Below are positions 51,064-55,281 of a stretch of DNA of 64,000 nt, piece after piece. The translations under genes and the position numbers were made by a program. Within the stretch, counting starts at the first letter, position 1. Every line of letters starts with the position of its first letter. Under the pieces are notes generated by a model. That model ran no database searches. It was not told the origin of the DNA and saw only the letters and a program-made list of their open reading frames with translations. Source of the DNA: Crateriforma conspicua (GTDB lineage Bacteria > Planctomycetota > Planctomycetia > Pirellulales > Pirellulaceae); assembly GCF_007752935.1 (NCBI RefSeq), contig NZ_CP036319.1:6490501-6554500 (forward strand). Reading direction: 5' to 3'.

Positions 51064-51218
51064 TCCAGCTGGCCGACCGCGAAAACACGCCGAAGCAGGA
51101 AAGAAGCGTGTTACATCGGCTGAGACTTGCCGCTTGGATTCATGAAACCGTCATCGAGAACCTTTTTTCTGCCCGGCTTTGCGATGCTCATCGCGGGCCT
51201 CAACCACGAGACAATCCC

Positions 51219-52418
51219 ATGAACACGTCTGAACGATCCGTCCGGAACCTGATTCGGTGCATCTTAGGCCTGGCGATGGCAGTGATTGCCGTCGGCACCG
51301 GCACGAACGCGAGCGCCGATTCGGAGAATTACAACCGTGTCTTGAAGAGTACCGCTTGGATCATTACCAGCGATGCCGACGACGAAACGTCCACCGGAAC
51401 GGGCGTCTATGTCGACGCGGAAAAGCGACTGGTGCTAACCAACGCGCATGTGGTCGGCGACAGCCGTTCGGCCGTGGTCTTCTTCCCCGACATTAAGGAC
51501 GGCTTGCCGCGGGTCGAACGCAAACACTACCTGACCAACGTCGTCAAACTGGCCCAGCCCGGCAAAGTCGTGGCGATCGATCGGCGTCGGGATTTGGCCC
51601 TGATTCAGTTGCCCAAAGCCCCCGAAAACGCCGAAGCGATCACGATTGCCGAAACCAGCACCACGCCGGGATCCAAGGTCGACACGATCGGAAACCCGGG
51701 TGACAGCGACGTGCTGTGGGTGTACACCGCCGGCCGGGTCCGCAGTGTTTACGACAAGAAATTCAAATCCAGCCACGGCGAACACGATTTTCGCGCCGTG
51801 GAGACCCAGAGCCCAATTAAGCCCGGCGATAGCGGCGGCCCGGTCGTCAATGACGAAGGCCAATTGGTGGCGATCGCCCAATCATTTTCGCCTCAAAGCC
51901 CGTTGGTCAGCTTTTGCGTGGACGTTTTGGAAATCCGGAAATTCATGGCAGAAGGTTGGAAACAGGCCCCCATCGCCACCAAGACTTTGCTGGAGAACGC
52001 CGGCATCGAGCACGAAAAACACTCGACCGGCCACTATCGCGTGGACTTCGAATATGCCACGGGAAAGAAACAGCAGGTTTTCGTCGCCAAGAACACCGAA
52101 TACTACCAGCGTGCCGACGTGCGACGTGTTTGGTCGCTGGTCCAAGTGTCCAAGGAATCCCCATCGACCGAGCTGATGATGCGGTTGTTGCGGCAAAGTT
52201 CCGCCACGAAGATCGGATCTTGGGCCGTTGAAAAGAACGACAATGGCGAATTCTTGTTGATCTACATGGCCAAACTGGACGCGACCTCCCCGGACGAAGC
52301 CGTCAGCGGAACGATCGAATACGTCGCCAAGATCGCCGGGGCGATGAACAGCGAACTGAACCCCGACGCCAAGGAAAAATCGGCGGCCGCCACCCTGGCA
52401 TCGTGGCTGGCCGACTGA
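51219..52418 (+). CDS. Exported trypsin-like serine protease
   Basis: S1-family (DegP-like fold) protease of 399 residues. Signal peptide near residues 10-33. Catalytic triad H77 (LTNAHVVG), D125 (DRRRDLALIQL) and S205 (KPGDSGGPVV). The substrate-pocket and oxyanion segments are normal. No PDZ domain follows; the C-terminal ~160 residues are a separate alpha/beta region. Start at the methionine of MNTSERSVRN. It lies between the two paralogous secreted genes at 50446 and 53460, and may act in their processing, which is inferred only from position. Confidence 0.88.
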   Translation: MNTSERSVRNLIRCILGLAMAVIAVGTGTNASADSENYNRVLKSTAWIITSDADDETSTGTGVYVDAEKRLVLTNAHVVGDSRSAVVFFPDIKDGLPRVERKHYLTNVVKLAQPGKVVAIDRRRDLALIQLPKAPENAEAITIAETSTTPGSKVDTIGNPGDSDVLWVYTAGRVRSVYDKKFKSSHGEHDFRAVETQSPIKPGDSGGPVVNDEGQLVAIAQSFSPQSPLVSFCVDVLEIRKFMAEGWKQAPIATKTLLENAGIEHEKHSTGHYRVDFEYATGKKQQVFVAKNTEYYQRADVRRVWSLVQVSKESPSTELMMRLLRQSSATKIGSWAVEKNDNGEFLLIYMAKLDATSPDEAVSGTIEYVAKIAGAMNSELNPDAKEKSAAATLASWLAD

Positions 52419-52424
52419 ACGAGT

Positions 52425-52531
52425 GTAGCTGGGCCCGCGAAGGGCTCAGGCCCCAGCACATCAAGATCCGTAGCTGGGCCCGCCGAGGGCTCAGGACGCG
52501 ATGGCCTCTGAACGCTGGCGCGTCCAGCTAC
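52425..52531. repeat. REP/BIME element, left copy (three GTAG-headed REPs)
   Basis: 107 bases with two direct REPs (52425-52449 and 52470-52494) and one inverted REP (52508-52531). Each begins GTAG; the direct units then have stem CTGGGCCC/GGGCTCAG, the inverted unit CTGGACGC/GCGTTCAG. It begins 7 bases after the protease stop. The right copy at 53213-53319 matches it in order and length with few differences. Confidence 0.88.
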
Positions 52532-52548
52532 TTCGGAACGTGGTCCCA

Positions 52549-53127
52549 TCAGCCTCGCTTTGGATCAGCCACATGAAACAAATCCGTTCGTTTCAAATAG
52601 GAAAACGCCCGCCAGAGACGCGGCCACGAGTCTTCCTGAAACAACCGCAAGTCGGGAAAACCGGGCAGTAGACAGCCGGAATATGCGTATGACGCGAACC
52701 CATCATGATCGATCAAGCCCGCCCGCTCGGGATTTCGAACGATGTATTCCACAATCGCCTGCAGCTCGGTCTGTTCGACCTCCGAGTCGCGCAAGACGCG
52801 ATCGTACGCTTGCAATTGCCACCGAAAACCGATTCGCTTCAGCGATAGATTGGTTTGTTTGCGAAAGAAACTCATCGCCACCCGCTGATATGAGTCATGG
52901 GCCAATCCATGCCAGAGCATGTGGACGTGATCGGGCATCAGGCAATACACCAGGCAAGCGATCCGATGCCGGAATCCGGTGTGCGTCAGGATCTCGCGAA
53001 ATCGATACAGAAACCAAGGATCCAACCAACCGGTGGCACGCCCGCCCATCGTCAACGACCCGTGGACCCAAGATTCGCCCTGATAAGCCCCCGGACTGAG
53101 ACGCTTTAGGTAGTCGTCCTGCGGCAT
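52549..53127 (-). CDS. REP-associated tyrosine transposase (RAYT, Y1 HUH)
   Basis: Single-domain Y1 transposase of the IS200/IS605-related RAYT group, 192 residues. The metal-binding HUH pair is H67-V-H69 in YCLMPDHVHMLWHG; the nucleophilic Tyr is likely Y128 in IVEYIVRNPERAGLI. RAYTs cleave and join REP sequences with a 5' GTAG or GGAG tetranucleotide. Here REP elements of that form flank the gene on both sides (18 and 86 bases away). No terminal inverted repeats or second transposon ORF are present, so this is a RAYT domesticated with its REPs, not an IS. Confidence 0.93.
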   Translation of the reverse strand: MPQDDYLKRLSPGAYQGESWVHGSLTMGGRATGWLDPWFLYRFREILTHTGFRHRIACLVYCLMPDHVHMLWHGLAHDSYQRVAMSFFRKQTNLSLKRIGFRWQLQAYDRVLRDSEVEQTELQAIVEYIVRNPERAGLIDHDGFASYAYSGCLLPGFPDLRLFQEDSWPRLWRAFSYLKRTDLFHVADPKRG

Positions 53128-53212
53128 GACTTTGTGATCTACGAGGAAATTGGAATCGCCCCGAAATGGCAGAGGGCTGCTGAATGCAACGCGAACTTTT
53201 GCAAATCAAGCC

Positions 53213-53319
53213 GTAGCTGGGCCCGTGGAGGGCTCAGGCCCCAGCACGTCAAGATCCGTAGCTGGGCCCGCGGAGGGCTCAGGATGCGATGGCCTCTGAA
53301 CGCTGGCGCGTCCAGCTAC
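53213..53319. repeat. REP/BIME element, right copy
   Basis: 107 bases, in the same orientation as the left copy, with REPs at 53213-53237, 53258-53282 and inverted 53296-53319. About six substitutions separate the copies, most in loops or linkers. The remaining bases to 53459, upstream of the next gene, hold nothing recognisable. Confidence 0.88.
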
Positions 53320-53459: not shown

Positions 53460-54464
53460 ATGAAACGCTCCATCAAAAAGCTGTTCGTCCTGACCGTCAC
53501 CGCCGCGATCACCGTTGCCGGCACACCTGCCGCGGAAGCCTGTGGCGGAGGCGGATTCAGCAGTTCACGTTTGGGTTCGTTCCGCGGCCGTGGATTTGCC
53601 ACCGGTGCACCACCGGTGATGACTCGCCGCCAGCAAGTCGCCCGTCACCAAGCGACCTATTCCACGCATCCTGCGACCACCAACCATTACCCGGCACCGA
53701 ATTCGTACGCGGCCCCCGCGACCTACCACGCCCAAACGACTTACCCGCAGTCGTCCGGCGTGTCGACGATCCGACCCGCCGTACCGCAAGGCATCCCAGC
53801 AACGCAAACGATCACGCAAAGCCGCATCGCAGCACCTGCGGCCGCTGCTCCGTCGACCACGAGCATTGCTCCGGTGCAACCGAACGTAAACAGCACAAGC
53901 GTTCCGACGACTCCAGCTCCGGTGCAAAAACAAGTCGCAACCAACCAGCCGACCCCAAATGTTGTCCCCGCGACGCAACAACCCGCGACGCAAAATTCAT
54001 CGGCCGAACCGAAAACCAGCGTGAACGCTCAGCAGTCCGCATTGCAGATCCTGGCATCGCTTTCGGCAACGGAAAGCAAGCCGGCCGAAACTGCCACGCC
54101 GTCGCCCCGCACCGCACCGGCCCAAGAGCAACCCGCCGCAACGATCCCGGAATTCAGTTCCGCTGCGGCCAGTGAATCGCCGGTCGGCGGCGCCGAAGTC
54201 GGCACTTGGTCGGTCAATTTGTCGGGCAACCAATCGGTCCGCTTGACCTTGGACGACGACGGAAAGTTCGTCTGGACCGCGACGCGGGGCGGAAAAACGA
54301 ATTCCTTTCAAGGACAATATCGCCTGCAGGACAACCAGCTGACTTTGGTTCGAGCCAACGATCTGCAACAGATGCAGGGCACCTGGGTCGGCGGCGGTGA
54401 CGAATTCACCTTCACCCTGGACGGTGCCAACAACGGCGGATTGAAGTTCAATCGGGCCAGCTGA
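53460..54464 (+). CDS. Secreted Ala/Pro/Thr-rich protein with C-terminal lipocalin-like beta domain
   Basis: 334 residues, paralogous over its last ~90 residues to the protein at 50446. Signal peptide MKRSIKKLFVLTVTAAITVAG. Then an Ala/Pro/Thr/Gln-rich, probably disordered region (~50-250) with Tyr and His repeats (YSTHPATTNHYPAPNSYAAP). C-terminal domain: VGTWSVNLSGNQSVRL, QGQYRLQDNQLTLVRAND, FTFTLDGANNGGLKFNR. The length difference between the two paralogues comes from the linker. Start at 53460; a frame open from 53289 runs through the REP element. Confidence 0.76.
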   Translation: MKRSIKKLFVLTVTAAITVAGTPAAEACGGGGFSSSRLGSFRGRGFATGAPPVMTRRQQVARHQATYSTHPATTNHYPAPNSYAAPATYHAQTTYPQSSGVSTIRPAVPQGIPATQTITQSRIAAPAAAAPSTTSIAPVQPNVNSTSVPTTPAPVQKQVATNQPTPNVVPATQQPATQNSSAEPKTSVNAQQSALQILASLSATESKPAETATPSPRTAPAQEQPAATIPEFSSAAASESPVGGAEVGTWSVNLSGNQSVRLTLDDDGKFVWTATRGGKTNSFQGQYRLQDNQLTLVRANDLQQMQGTWVGGGDEFTFTLDGANNGGLKFNRAS

Positions 54465-54843: not shown

Positions 54844-55281
54844 ATGCGAGCCAACCGAAACATCACCCGTATCGACCGCAAAACCACCGGCGGCTATCTG
54901 GTCCGTGTCATGCGGCGCGGCGAATTGACGTCCTGGTACTTCAGCGACAAGGAGTACGGCAGCAAACGAAAGGCTTTGGCCGCGGCGAAAGAGTACCGCG
55001 ATGAACTGGAAGGCGGATTGGCCGGCTATAGCGCCAAACAGTTGGCCAAGAAGCAGCGCAGCAATAACACCTCCGGCGTCGTCGGCGTTCGCTTGGTCGA
55101 AGAAAAGGACCCACGTTGGCCTTCACAACCGACCTACCGATACTGGGTGGCCCAGTGGAGTCCGCAAAAGGGAATTCGCCGTACCAAGCGGTTCAGTGTT
55201 GAAAAGTATGGCGAAGACAAGGCCTACAAAATGGCGGTCCAAGCGCGCAAGAAGGGCGTCGCCGAAATGGAAGACCGCTAG
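54844..55281 (+). CDS. AP2-like DNA-binding domain protein (two copies)
   Basis: 145 residues. The C-terminal half (~73-140) resembles an AP2 domain as found in homing-endonuclease and integrase-associated proteins: SGVVGVRL, YRYWVAQWSP, TKRFSVEKYGEDKAYKMAVQAR. The N-terminal half (~3-60) has a similar pattern (ITRIDRKTTGGYLVRVMRRG ... KEYGSKRKALAAAKEYRDEL), so it may be a tandem of two. Strongly basic. No endonuclease domain. Likely a DNA-binding protein, role unknown. Confidence 0.7.
   Translation: MRANRNITRIDRKTTGGYLVRVMRRGELTSWYFSDKEYGSKRKALAAAKEYRDELEGGLAGYSAKQLAKKQRSNNTSGVVGVRLVEEKDPRWPSQPTYRYWVAQWSPQKGIRRTKRFSVEKYGEDKAYKMAVQARKKGVAEMEDR

Follow-up and report, generated by a model that had tools for sequence, protein, structure and literature searches.

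Does a RAYT gene that stands between two nearly identical arrays of palindromes form a self-contained REPtron, and has such a unit moved, or sown its repeats, in the genome that carries it? The question is raised by a locus of Crateriforma conspicua (genome G000, 7.18 Mb), contained in a 64,000-nt stretch of DNA that was analysed as a whole and is called the window here; the only other member of the genus seen, G001, served for comparison. The locus contains two direct 107-nt copies of one repeat family, at 52425–52531 and 53213–53319, which lie 788 nt apart and are identical at 102 of 107 positions (95%). Each copy comprises two 25-nt GTAG REPs on the plus strand and one 24-nt inverted REP. 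By repeat search and hairpin pairing, the plus-strand REPs were placed at 52425–52449 and 52470–52494 in the left array and at 53213–53237 and 53258–53282 in the right array, and by hairpin pairing the inverted REPs were placed on the minus strand at 52508–52531 and 53296–53319. In all six, a GTAG head (GTAG or GTGG being the form sought, directly before a palindrome of 20–40 nt) is followed by an 8-bp stem of seven Watson–Crick pairs and one G·T pair, with a loop of 4–5 nt. The plus-strand REPs are of an alpha type with a 5-nt loop, GTAG + CTGGGCCC-loop-GGGCTCAG, and the inverted REPs of a beta type, GTAG + CTGGACGC-GCCA-GCGTTCAG. REP 2 and the inverted REP of the left array together make a 62-nt REPIN-like doublet.

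Between the arrays, at 52549–53127 on the minus strand, lies a RAYT (TnpAREP-like) gene with an ATG start and an open frame of 192 amino acids. Its neighbours, both on the plus strand, are a trypsin-like protease gene (Pfam Trypsin_2; 51213–52418, the start being a chosen ATG within a longer frame) and a 334-aa gene (53460–54464) whose product is probably secreted, as judged by eye from its signal-like start, and has no Pfam match. The original prediction had thus described the locus correctly in its near-identical triple-REP elements, in their order and GTAG heads, in the complete RAYT gene that they bracket, and in its position between a protease gene and a gene for a secreted protein.

The protein encoded between the arrays has the features expected of a RAYT. 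An AlphaFold2 model built from 25 sequences (mean pLDDT 92.5) adopts the Y1 HuH fold of TnpAREP, and a Foldseek search with it gave 1293 matches at E values of up to 10, led by 4er8_A (E 1.5e-7, 14% identity over the aligned part), the E. coli RAYT (TnpAREP) bound to a REP hairpin. The next ranks are held by solved structures of IS608, ISDra2 and other IS200/IS605 transposases; a sequence search of solved structures with the RAYT returned none at E 0.1. The HuH motif reads DHVH (H67 and H69) and the tyrosine motif YIVRNP (Y128 and N132), with Y128 the putative catalytic tyrosine as assigned by motif. These four residues are invariant in all 11 aligned rows, and in a larger set of clade proteins, which includes near-duplicates, [ND]HxH is present in 91 of 91 and Y[IVL]xxNP in 88 of 91. 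The WQ signature of REP-linked subclasses, described for W94 and Q95 (PMC6006769), is represented ahead of the tyrosine motif by W103 and Q104, and the nearly invariant W23 is lost in the G000 protein.

By comparison, the standard models score this protein low. Against the curated cut-offs of the two databases, which are their detection thresholds, the RAYT scores 18.8 bits with Pfam Y1_Tnp (cut-off 23) and 44.2 bits with NF047646 (REP_Tyr_transpos; cut-off 80), the latter being its sole NCBIfam match. Of 11 clade members, all match NF047646 at E 0.001 and ten match Y1_Tnp at E 0.1, and since the best Y1_Tnp value is E 0.0011, all 11 are expected to lie below the Pfam cut-off.

The RAYT gene is flanked on both sides by its own REPs, at least one of them inverted, and is found as a single copy at the same site in both species. 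We conclude that the locus is very probably a REPtron, in which the single gene for a RAYT, an HuH nuclease of single-stranded DNA, is enclosed by two arrays of the hairpins that this protein would recognise. On the basis of the fold, the motifs, the REP anatomy and published work on the E. coli and Stenotrophomonas enzymes, which bind single-stranded REP and cut at CT next to the hairpin as far as that account goes (PMC8266576), the RAYT would bind REP DNA while it is single-stranded, cut beside the GTAG hairpin through Y128 and rejoin the DNA, and may once have seeded single REPs round the chromosome. No match was returned by PADLOC for a defence role.

Several known systems come close to this locus. 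The group 3 REPtron Sm of Stenotrophomonas maltophilia resembles the window locus in hairpins, rather than proteins, which were the objects compared: GTAG stands directly before an 8-bp palindrome with a short loop, and REP and iREP adjoin the gene, whereas its stem is perfect with a 3-nt loop and that of the window has one conserved G·T pair and a loop of 4–5 nt (PMC8266576). The E. coli TnpAREP system shares with the window, besides the fold, GTAG REPs in REPIN-like pairs, but the REPs there have a bulge on which activity depends (PMC8266576). In the same phylum, Rhodopirellula baltica is rich in tyrosine-transposase genes with flanking repeats; the likeness is one of description, the flanks there being REP or TIR (PMC3733652). 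A TIRtron would have long terminal inverted repeats unrelated to GTAG, whereas the flanks here are direct GTAG arrays. The usual arrangement of one tnpAREP gene per REP type has been described (PMC3733652, PMC6006769, PMC2817692), and REPtrons have likewise been reported from species that lack GTAG repeats, and with no dispersed REP family to match them (PMC3733652). The locus is in this sense an ordinary REPtron of an already well-described kind, and it is the contrast in REP number with its sister system, set out below, that is worth a specialist's note.

The close fit of the arrays to their neighbours raises the alternative that they are kept for host use, at the 3′ end of the protease transcript and in the leader of the secreted-protein gene, with the RAYT as a passenger. 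The left array begins 6 nt past the protease stop and the right array ends 140 nt ahead of the secreted-protein gene, and the arrays as single-strand DNA fold better than shuffled sequences (z −1.9 to −3.1), as this alternative would have it. However, no terminator-like site was found in the arrays and no promoter-like site for the RAYT or in the region; furthermore, the RAYT frame is intact with a dN/dS well under 1, and the right array of G001 has lost one REP. We therefore regard maintenance of the arrays for host use as quite unlikely.

The locus was then compared with its counterparts in relatives. G001 retains the RAYT (92% amino acid identity), both arrays and the tested neighbour genes in the same order as G000. 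It differs by 10 additional nucleotides ahead of the left array and by a 45-nt deletion in the right array that removes one REP, a loss of the kind that recombining direct REPs would produce. Among 58 other genomes searched, all outside the genus, 10 have a match to the protease, and the best five were compared. In four of them (G013, G018, G019 and G028) the protease gene is followed by the secreted-protein gene with no RAYT between; the fifth, G027, has no match to the secreted-protein gene. The protease–secreted-gene spacer, taken to the most upstream start of the latter, measures 312 nt in G013, 427 nt in G018, 204 nt in G019 and 391 nt in G028, as against 1041 nt in G000, where subtraction of the 895-nt element leaves 146 nt. 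The right part of this residual spacer aligns with the spacer of G018, with none of 300 shuffles as good; the spacers of G013, G028 and G019 align with it weakly or without significance, their scores being reached by 10, 32 and 211 of 300 shuffles, respectively. The simplest account of these sequence comparisons would be that the element was gained once, in the ancestor of the genus, repeated loss being the less simple alternative. The unit would on this account have entered the protease–secreted-protein spacer before the two species split and been inherited in place since. The RAYT-free spacer of G028 (L083) has past the protease a GTAG hairpin array of its own, GTAGCATGGGCCCCCCGGCCCGTG and kin, read by eye as three direct hairpins and one inverted; by this reading, the same spacer would have been reached by another REP family.

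Gain at this site could also mean that the whole unit is mobile as one element, in which, by analogy with IS200/IS605, one direct array would act as the left end and the other as the right. The arrays share their polarity, which would be expected if they were single-strand ends, and the unit entered this spacer once. In addition, the RAYT of Stieleria tagensis, the nearest other one and the sister of the window's, occupies another locus, and the window neighbour genes tested were all absent from the stretches examined around 28 of the 80 clade loci treated below (L106–L133) and around 9 other family loci. By contrast, IS200/IS605 elements move as a unit and occupy multiple sites, whereas each of the two species has one copy of this RAYT, at the identical site; the 62% amino acid identity to the Stieleria copy moreover implies a divergence long enough for relocation to have had other causes. 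Mobility of the unit as one element is thus very unlikely in our judgement, and we retain the reading of a REPtron that stays in place. The original prediction of a REPtron inserted or duplicated here accordingly stands as regards insertion, in view of the four RAYT-free spacers, and fails as regards duplication or movement as a unit, since one locus only was found. Its expectation of further copies in the genome failed for the 107-nt unit and held for single GTAGCTGG-type REPs, 20 of which lie outside the element. As for variation among close relatives, the element is present at the same site in two of two genus members, against the prediction, and it does vary, through the 45-nt REP deletion and the 10-nt indel.

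Substitutions between G000 and G001 point to moderate purifying selection under which the unit would have been kept. The RAYT has a dN/dS of 0.228 (17 non-synonymous and 21 synonymous changes), the protease gene 0.034 and the secreted-protein gene 0.303; the gene at 54844–55281 gives 0.010, and part of the gene that we take to be S1 gives 0.009, both of these genes being named from the look of their proteins. An rpiB comparison was set aside as meaningless, since the frame read in G001 ended after 54 codons. Judged by these values, the RAYT is constrained, if loosely: more loosely than the protease and much like the secreted-protein gene. The left arrays of the two species are identical at 99 of 107 positions, as compared with 102 of 107 between left and right arrays within G000. 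No conclusion was drawn on concerted evolution of the arrays, as the changes are too few and the right array of G001 is shorter. Recombination between adjacent REPs would be the main source of present change in the arrays; one 45-nt loss of this kind has been seen.

Whether the REPtron has spread its REPs was examined by searches of the genomes. The 107-nt unit has no copy in G000 beyond this locus (the next match covers 16 bases, E 0.76), and among 98 relatives it occurs in G000 and G001 only. The alpha REP, sought in G000 as a 25-mer with up to 3 mismatches, matches only the four plus-strand REPs of the element (backwards control, 0 matches), and no exact beta REP was found in G000 outside the element. 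Dispersed beta-type REPs, counted by the pattern GTAGCTGGRYKCGCCAGMRYTCAG with up to 2 mismatches, are nevertheless present: 22 matches in G000 and 18 in G001, two of them in the element in each case, 45 in Stieleria and 2 in G019, as compared with none in G007, G013, G018, G028, G037 and G045 and none in the backwards controls. This leaves 20 single REPs outside the element in G000 and 16 in G001. A REPtron confined to its locus without any dispersed REPs is also ruled out by a looser pattern, in which any stem may stand between GTAGCTGG and TCAG (23 matches in G000, 6 of them in the element, against 10 in the backwards control).

The dispersed REPs closely follow the beta REP. Exactly one compensated stem pair separates 11 of the 20 G000 copies from it, ACGC/GCGT being replaced by ATGC/GCAT in 8 and by ACTC/GAGT in 3, and these common forms keep the head, the loop GCCA, the tail TCAG and the G·T pair; additional changes are seen in the remaining 9. 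The dispersed REPs are solitary or arranged in direct runs of 2–3, and inverted partners were absent from the stretches examined. As alpha and exact beta REPs are confined to the element, it is by similarity that the dispersed set is linked to the RAYT. The dispersed GTAGCTGG REPs (GTAGCTGGATGCGCCAGCATTCAG, as compared with the element's beta REP) could instead stem from another RAYT, lost or unrecognised, in which case the REPtron would be confined and would never have spread REPs of its own. That the 107-nt unit and the alpha REP occur at this locus only, that no dispersed REP is identical to the beta REP, and that none has an inverted partner in those stretches would all agree with such a source. 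G000 also contains other Y1_Tnp-like ORFs (18 matches at E 1 including this RAYT, 12 of them above the cut-off) as possible makers of dispersed REPs, and a further REP set, described below, has no close RAYT in this genome. Against this, more than half of the dispersed REPs differ from the beta REP by the one compensated pair only, and the sole other G000 match to the RAYT at E 0.001 is remote, with 29% identity. Furthermore, the beta-type pattern with up to 1 mismatch occurs in 8 of 149 family genomes, and in only four of them at counts of at least 14, namely G000 (17), G001 (14), G165 (57, at the same match coordinates as in Stieleria tagensis, G098) and G180 (181); the RAYT lineage is present in the three of these four that were searched for it. 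We consider another RAYT unlikely as the source of the dispersed REPs, and prefer the reading in which the RAYT of this lineage once seeded them. In G180, the 181 REPs are of the GTAGCTGGGCCCGCCAGGGTTCAG type, and no other genome of the family sample (149 genomes) has as many of this type.

Comparison of the two species indicates that these REPs are mostly old. Ten G000 copies were compared with one 240-kb stretch of G001: 8 fall at 5 sites and 2 could not be placed. All five sites bear REPs in G001, although at the last one, which has two positions, the sequence at the first departs from the REP after GTAGCTG and that at the second has degenerated. Seven more G000 copies lie at four sites with REPs in both species, one pair of which is 79% identical and may be a different site. 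In all, 15 of the 20 G000 copies map to nine sites that also bear REPs in G001, with the other 5 unplaced, as are three of the sixteen G001 copies. Among the placed sites, none was found where one species has a REP and the other a clean empty site, which argues that the REP population is mostly older than the species split. Recent REP movement was not seen between G000 and G001, and REP spread may be slow or have stopped in this genus.

The distribution of the dispersed REPs along the chromosome was also considered. A test for strand bias relative to the direction of replication counted 9 of 14 loci when the terminus was set at 3.42 Mb (p 0.42) and 5 or 11 of 14 when it was set elsewhere, and so showed no bias. 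In a separate observation, 11 of the 14 loci lie within 0.9 Mb of the GC-skew sign change (p 4e-5; G000:C1:3271578-4306264), a clustering that was tested post hoc and that includes sites which share flanking sequence and are not independent. Origin and terminus were set by the GC skew of 20 samples alone, with the sign change between the samples at 3.24 and 3.60 Mb. At L248 (G000:C1:3318518-3320848), an extra segment of about 2.5 kb is for the most part enclosed by a pair of direct REPs, and G001 has one REP there. The segment contains a 430-aa ORF that looks like a DDE transposase.

A second REP set of G000 consists of 14 copies (up to 1 mismatch) of GTAGTGGACGAGGTCACGAGTCC and kin (GTAGTGGACGAGG), 10 of which cluster at G000:C1:1815789-1836268 (L091 and L092) near genes that look sulfatase-like by eye. 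No close clade RAYT accompanies this set in G000, whereas in G001 a RAYT accompanied by REPs of this kind is retained at C12:156800 (L056); these REPs seem to have outlived their RAYT in G000. Two members of the set enter coding frames (L091:2039-3649 and L091:8306-9928), where they read as VVDEATSP... and VVDEVTSP..., an arrangement that we interpret as in-frame REP insertion or extension.

The sister system in Stieleria tagensis (L106, NZ_JAMYFE010000058.1) provides the main comparison for REP number. In the tree, the RAYTs of the window and G001 stand beside that of S. tagensis with support 100/95. The two systems have the same order of REP, REP and inverted REP and the same stem plan, and the Stieleria alpha stem CTGGACCG/CGGTTCAG differs from that of the window in two pairs, both compensated. 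By comparison, the triple unit is repeated upstream in Stieleria, the inverted REPs are without the G·T pair, and the RAYT frame is cut short by a stop at codon 172 of 192, which may be a sequencing error, whereas the window RAYT is intact. The Stieleria REP GTAGCTGGACCGGCCACGGTTCAG has 283 copies (up to 2 mismatches, flanking ones counted), and among the copies listed many are in tandem at 88–118 nt. Two related bacteria thus have a hairpin plan and a RAYT lineage in common, with REP numbers more than ten-fold apart, and the pair of Crateriforma species shows which REP sites are old. Together they offer a usable natural comparison, if no surprise, for the question by what means RAYTs spread REPs and what leads cells to keep them. 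A literature search for this clade or for Stieleria REPs found no paper, which is a weak negative.

The RAYT belongs to a wider clade. An alignment-based search gave at least 302 confirmed relatives, the best 80 loci of which come from Planctomycetota, Verrucomicrobiota, Lentisphaerota, Kiritimatiellota and Armatimonadota. Of these 80 loci, 63 have both flanks of at least 400 nt, and a GTAG/GTGG-headed 14-mer (up to 2 mismatches) is common to both sides of the gene in 60 of the 63. In the corresponding controls, such a match arose at 4 of 103 positions shifted within the same loci, in 19 of 630 shuffles and in 323 of 2000 flank pairs drawn from different loci, the last value being high probably because REPs are common to related loci. 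Set against these controls, the count indicates that REP bracketing is the rule in the clade. The WQ position reads LQ or FQ in 74 of the 85 clade proteins in which the motif was found (91 examined). We tentatively suggest, as a reading that is possible but falls short of probable, that the window RAYT represents a subclass across the Planctomycetota–Verrucomicrobiota group that is under-detected by standard models, that usually has LQ or FQ in place of WQ, and within which REP number may be uncoupled from RAYT integrity. The uncoupling would be seen on comparing this genus, where the RAYT is intact and the REPs number about 20 and are mostly old, with S. tagensis, where the frame stops at codon 172 and there are 283 REPs, many in tandem; the triple-REP unit is kept in both.

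Two further observations concern other loci. In G013, clade RAYTs at L057:2198-3377 and L058:2602-3127 are flanked by tandem units of 100–110 nt, a length near that of the window's 107-nt unit, with up to 9 (L057) and 5 (L058) among the copies listed. In G000 itself, a Y1-transposase-like ORF (L098, G000:C1:2226023-2226801) is adjoined by three GTAGGTCATGCT repeats and is perhaps a second, unrelated REPtron.
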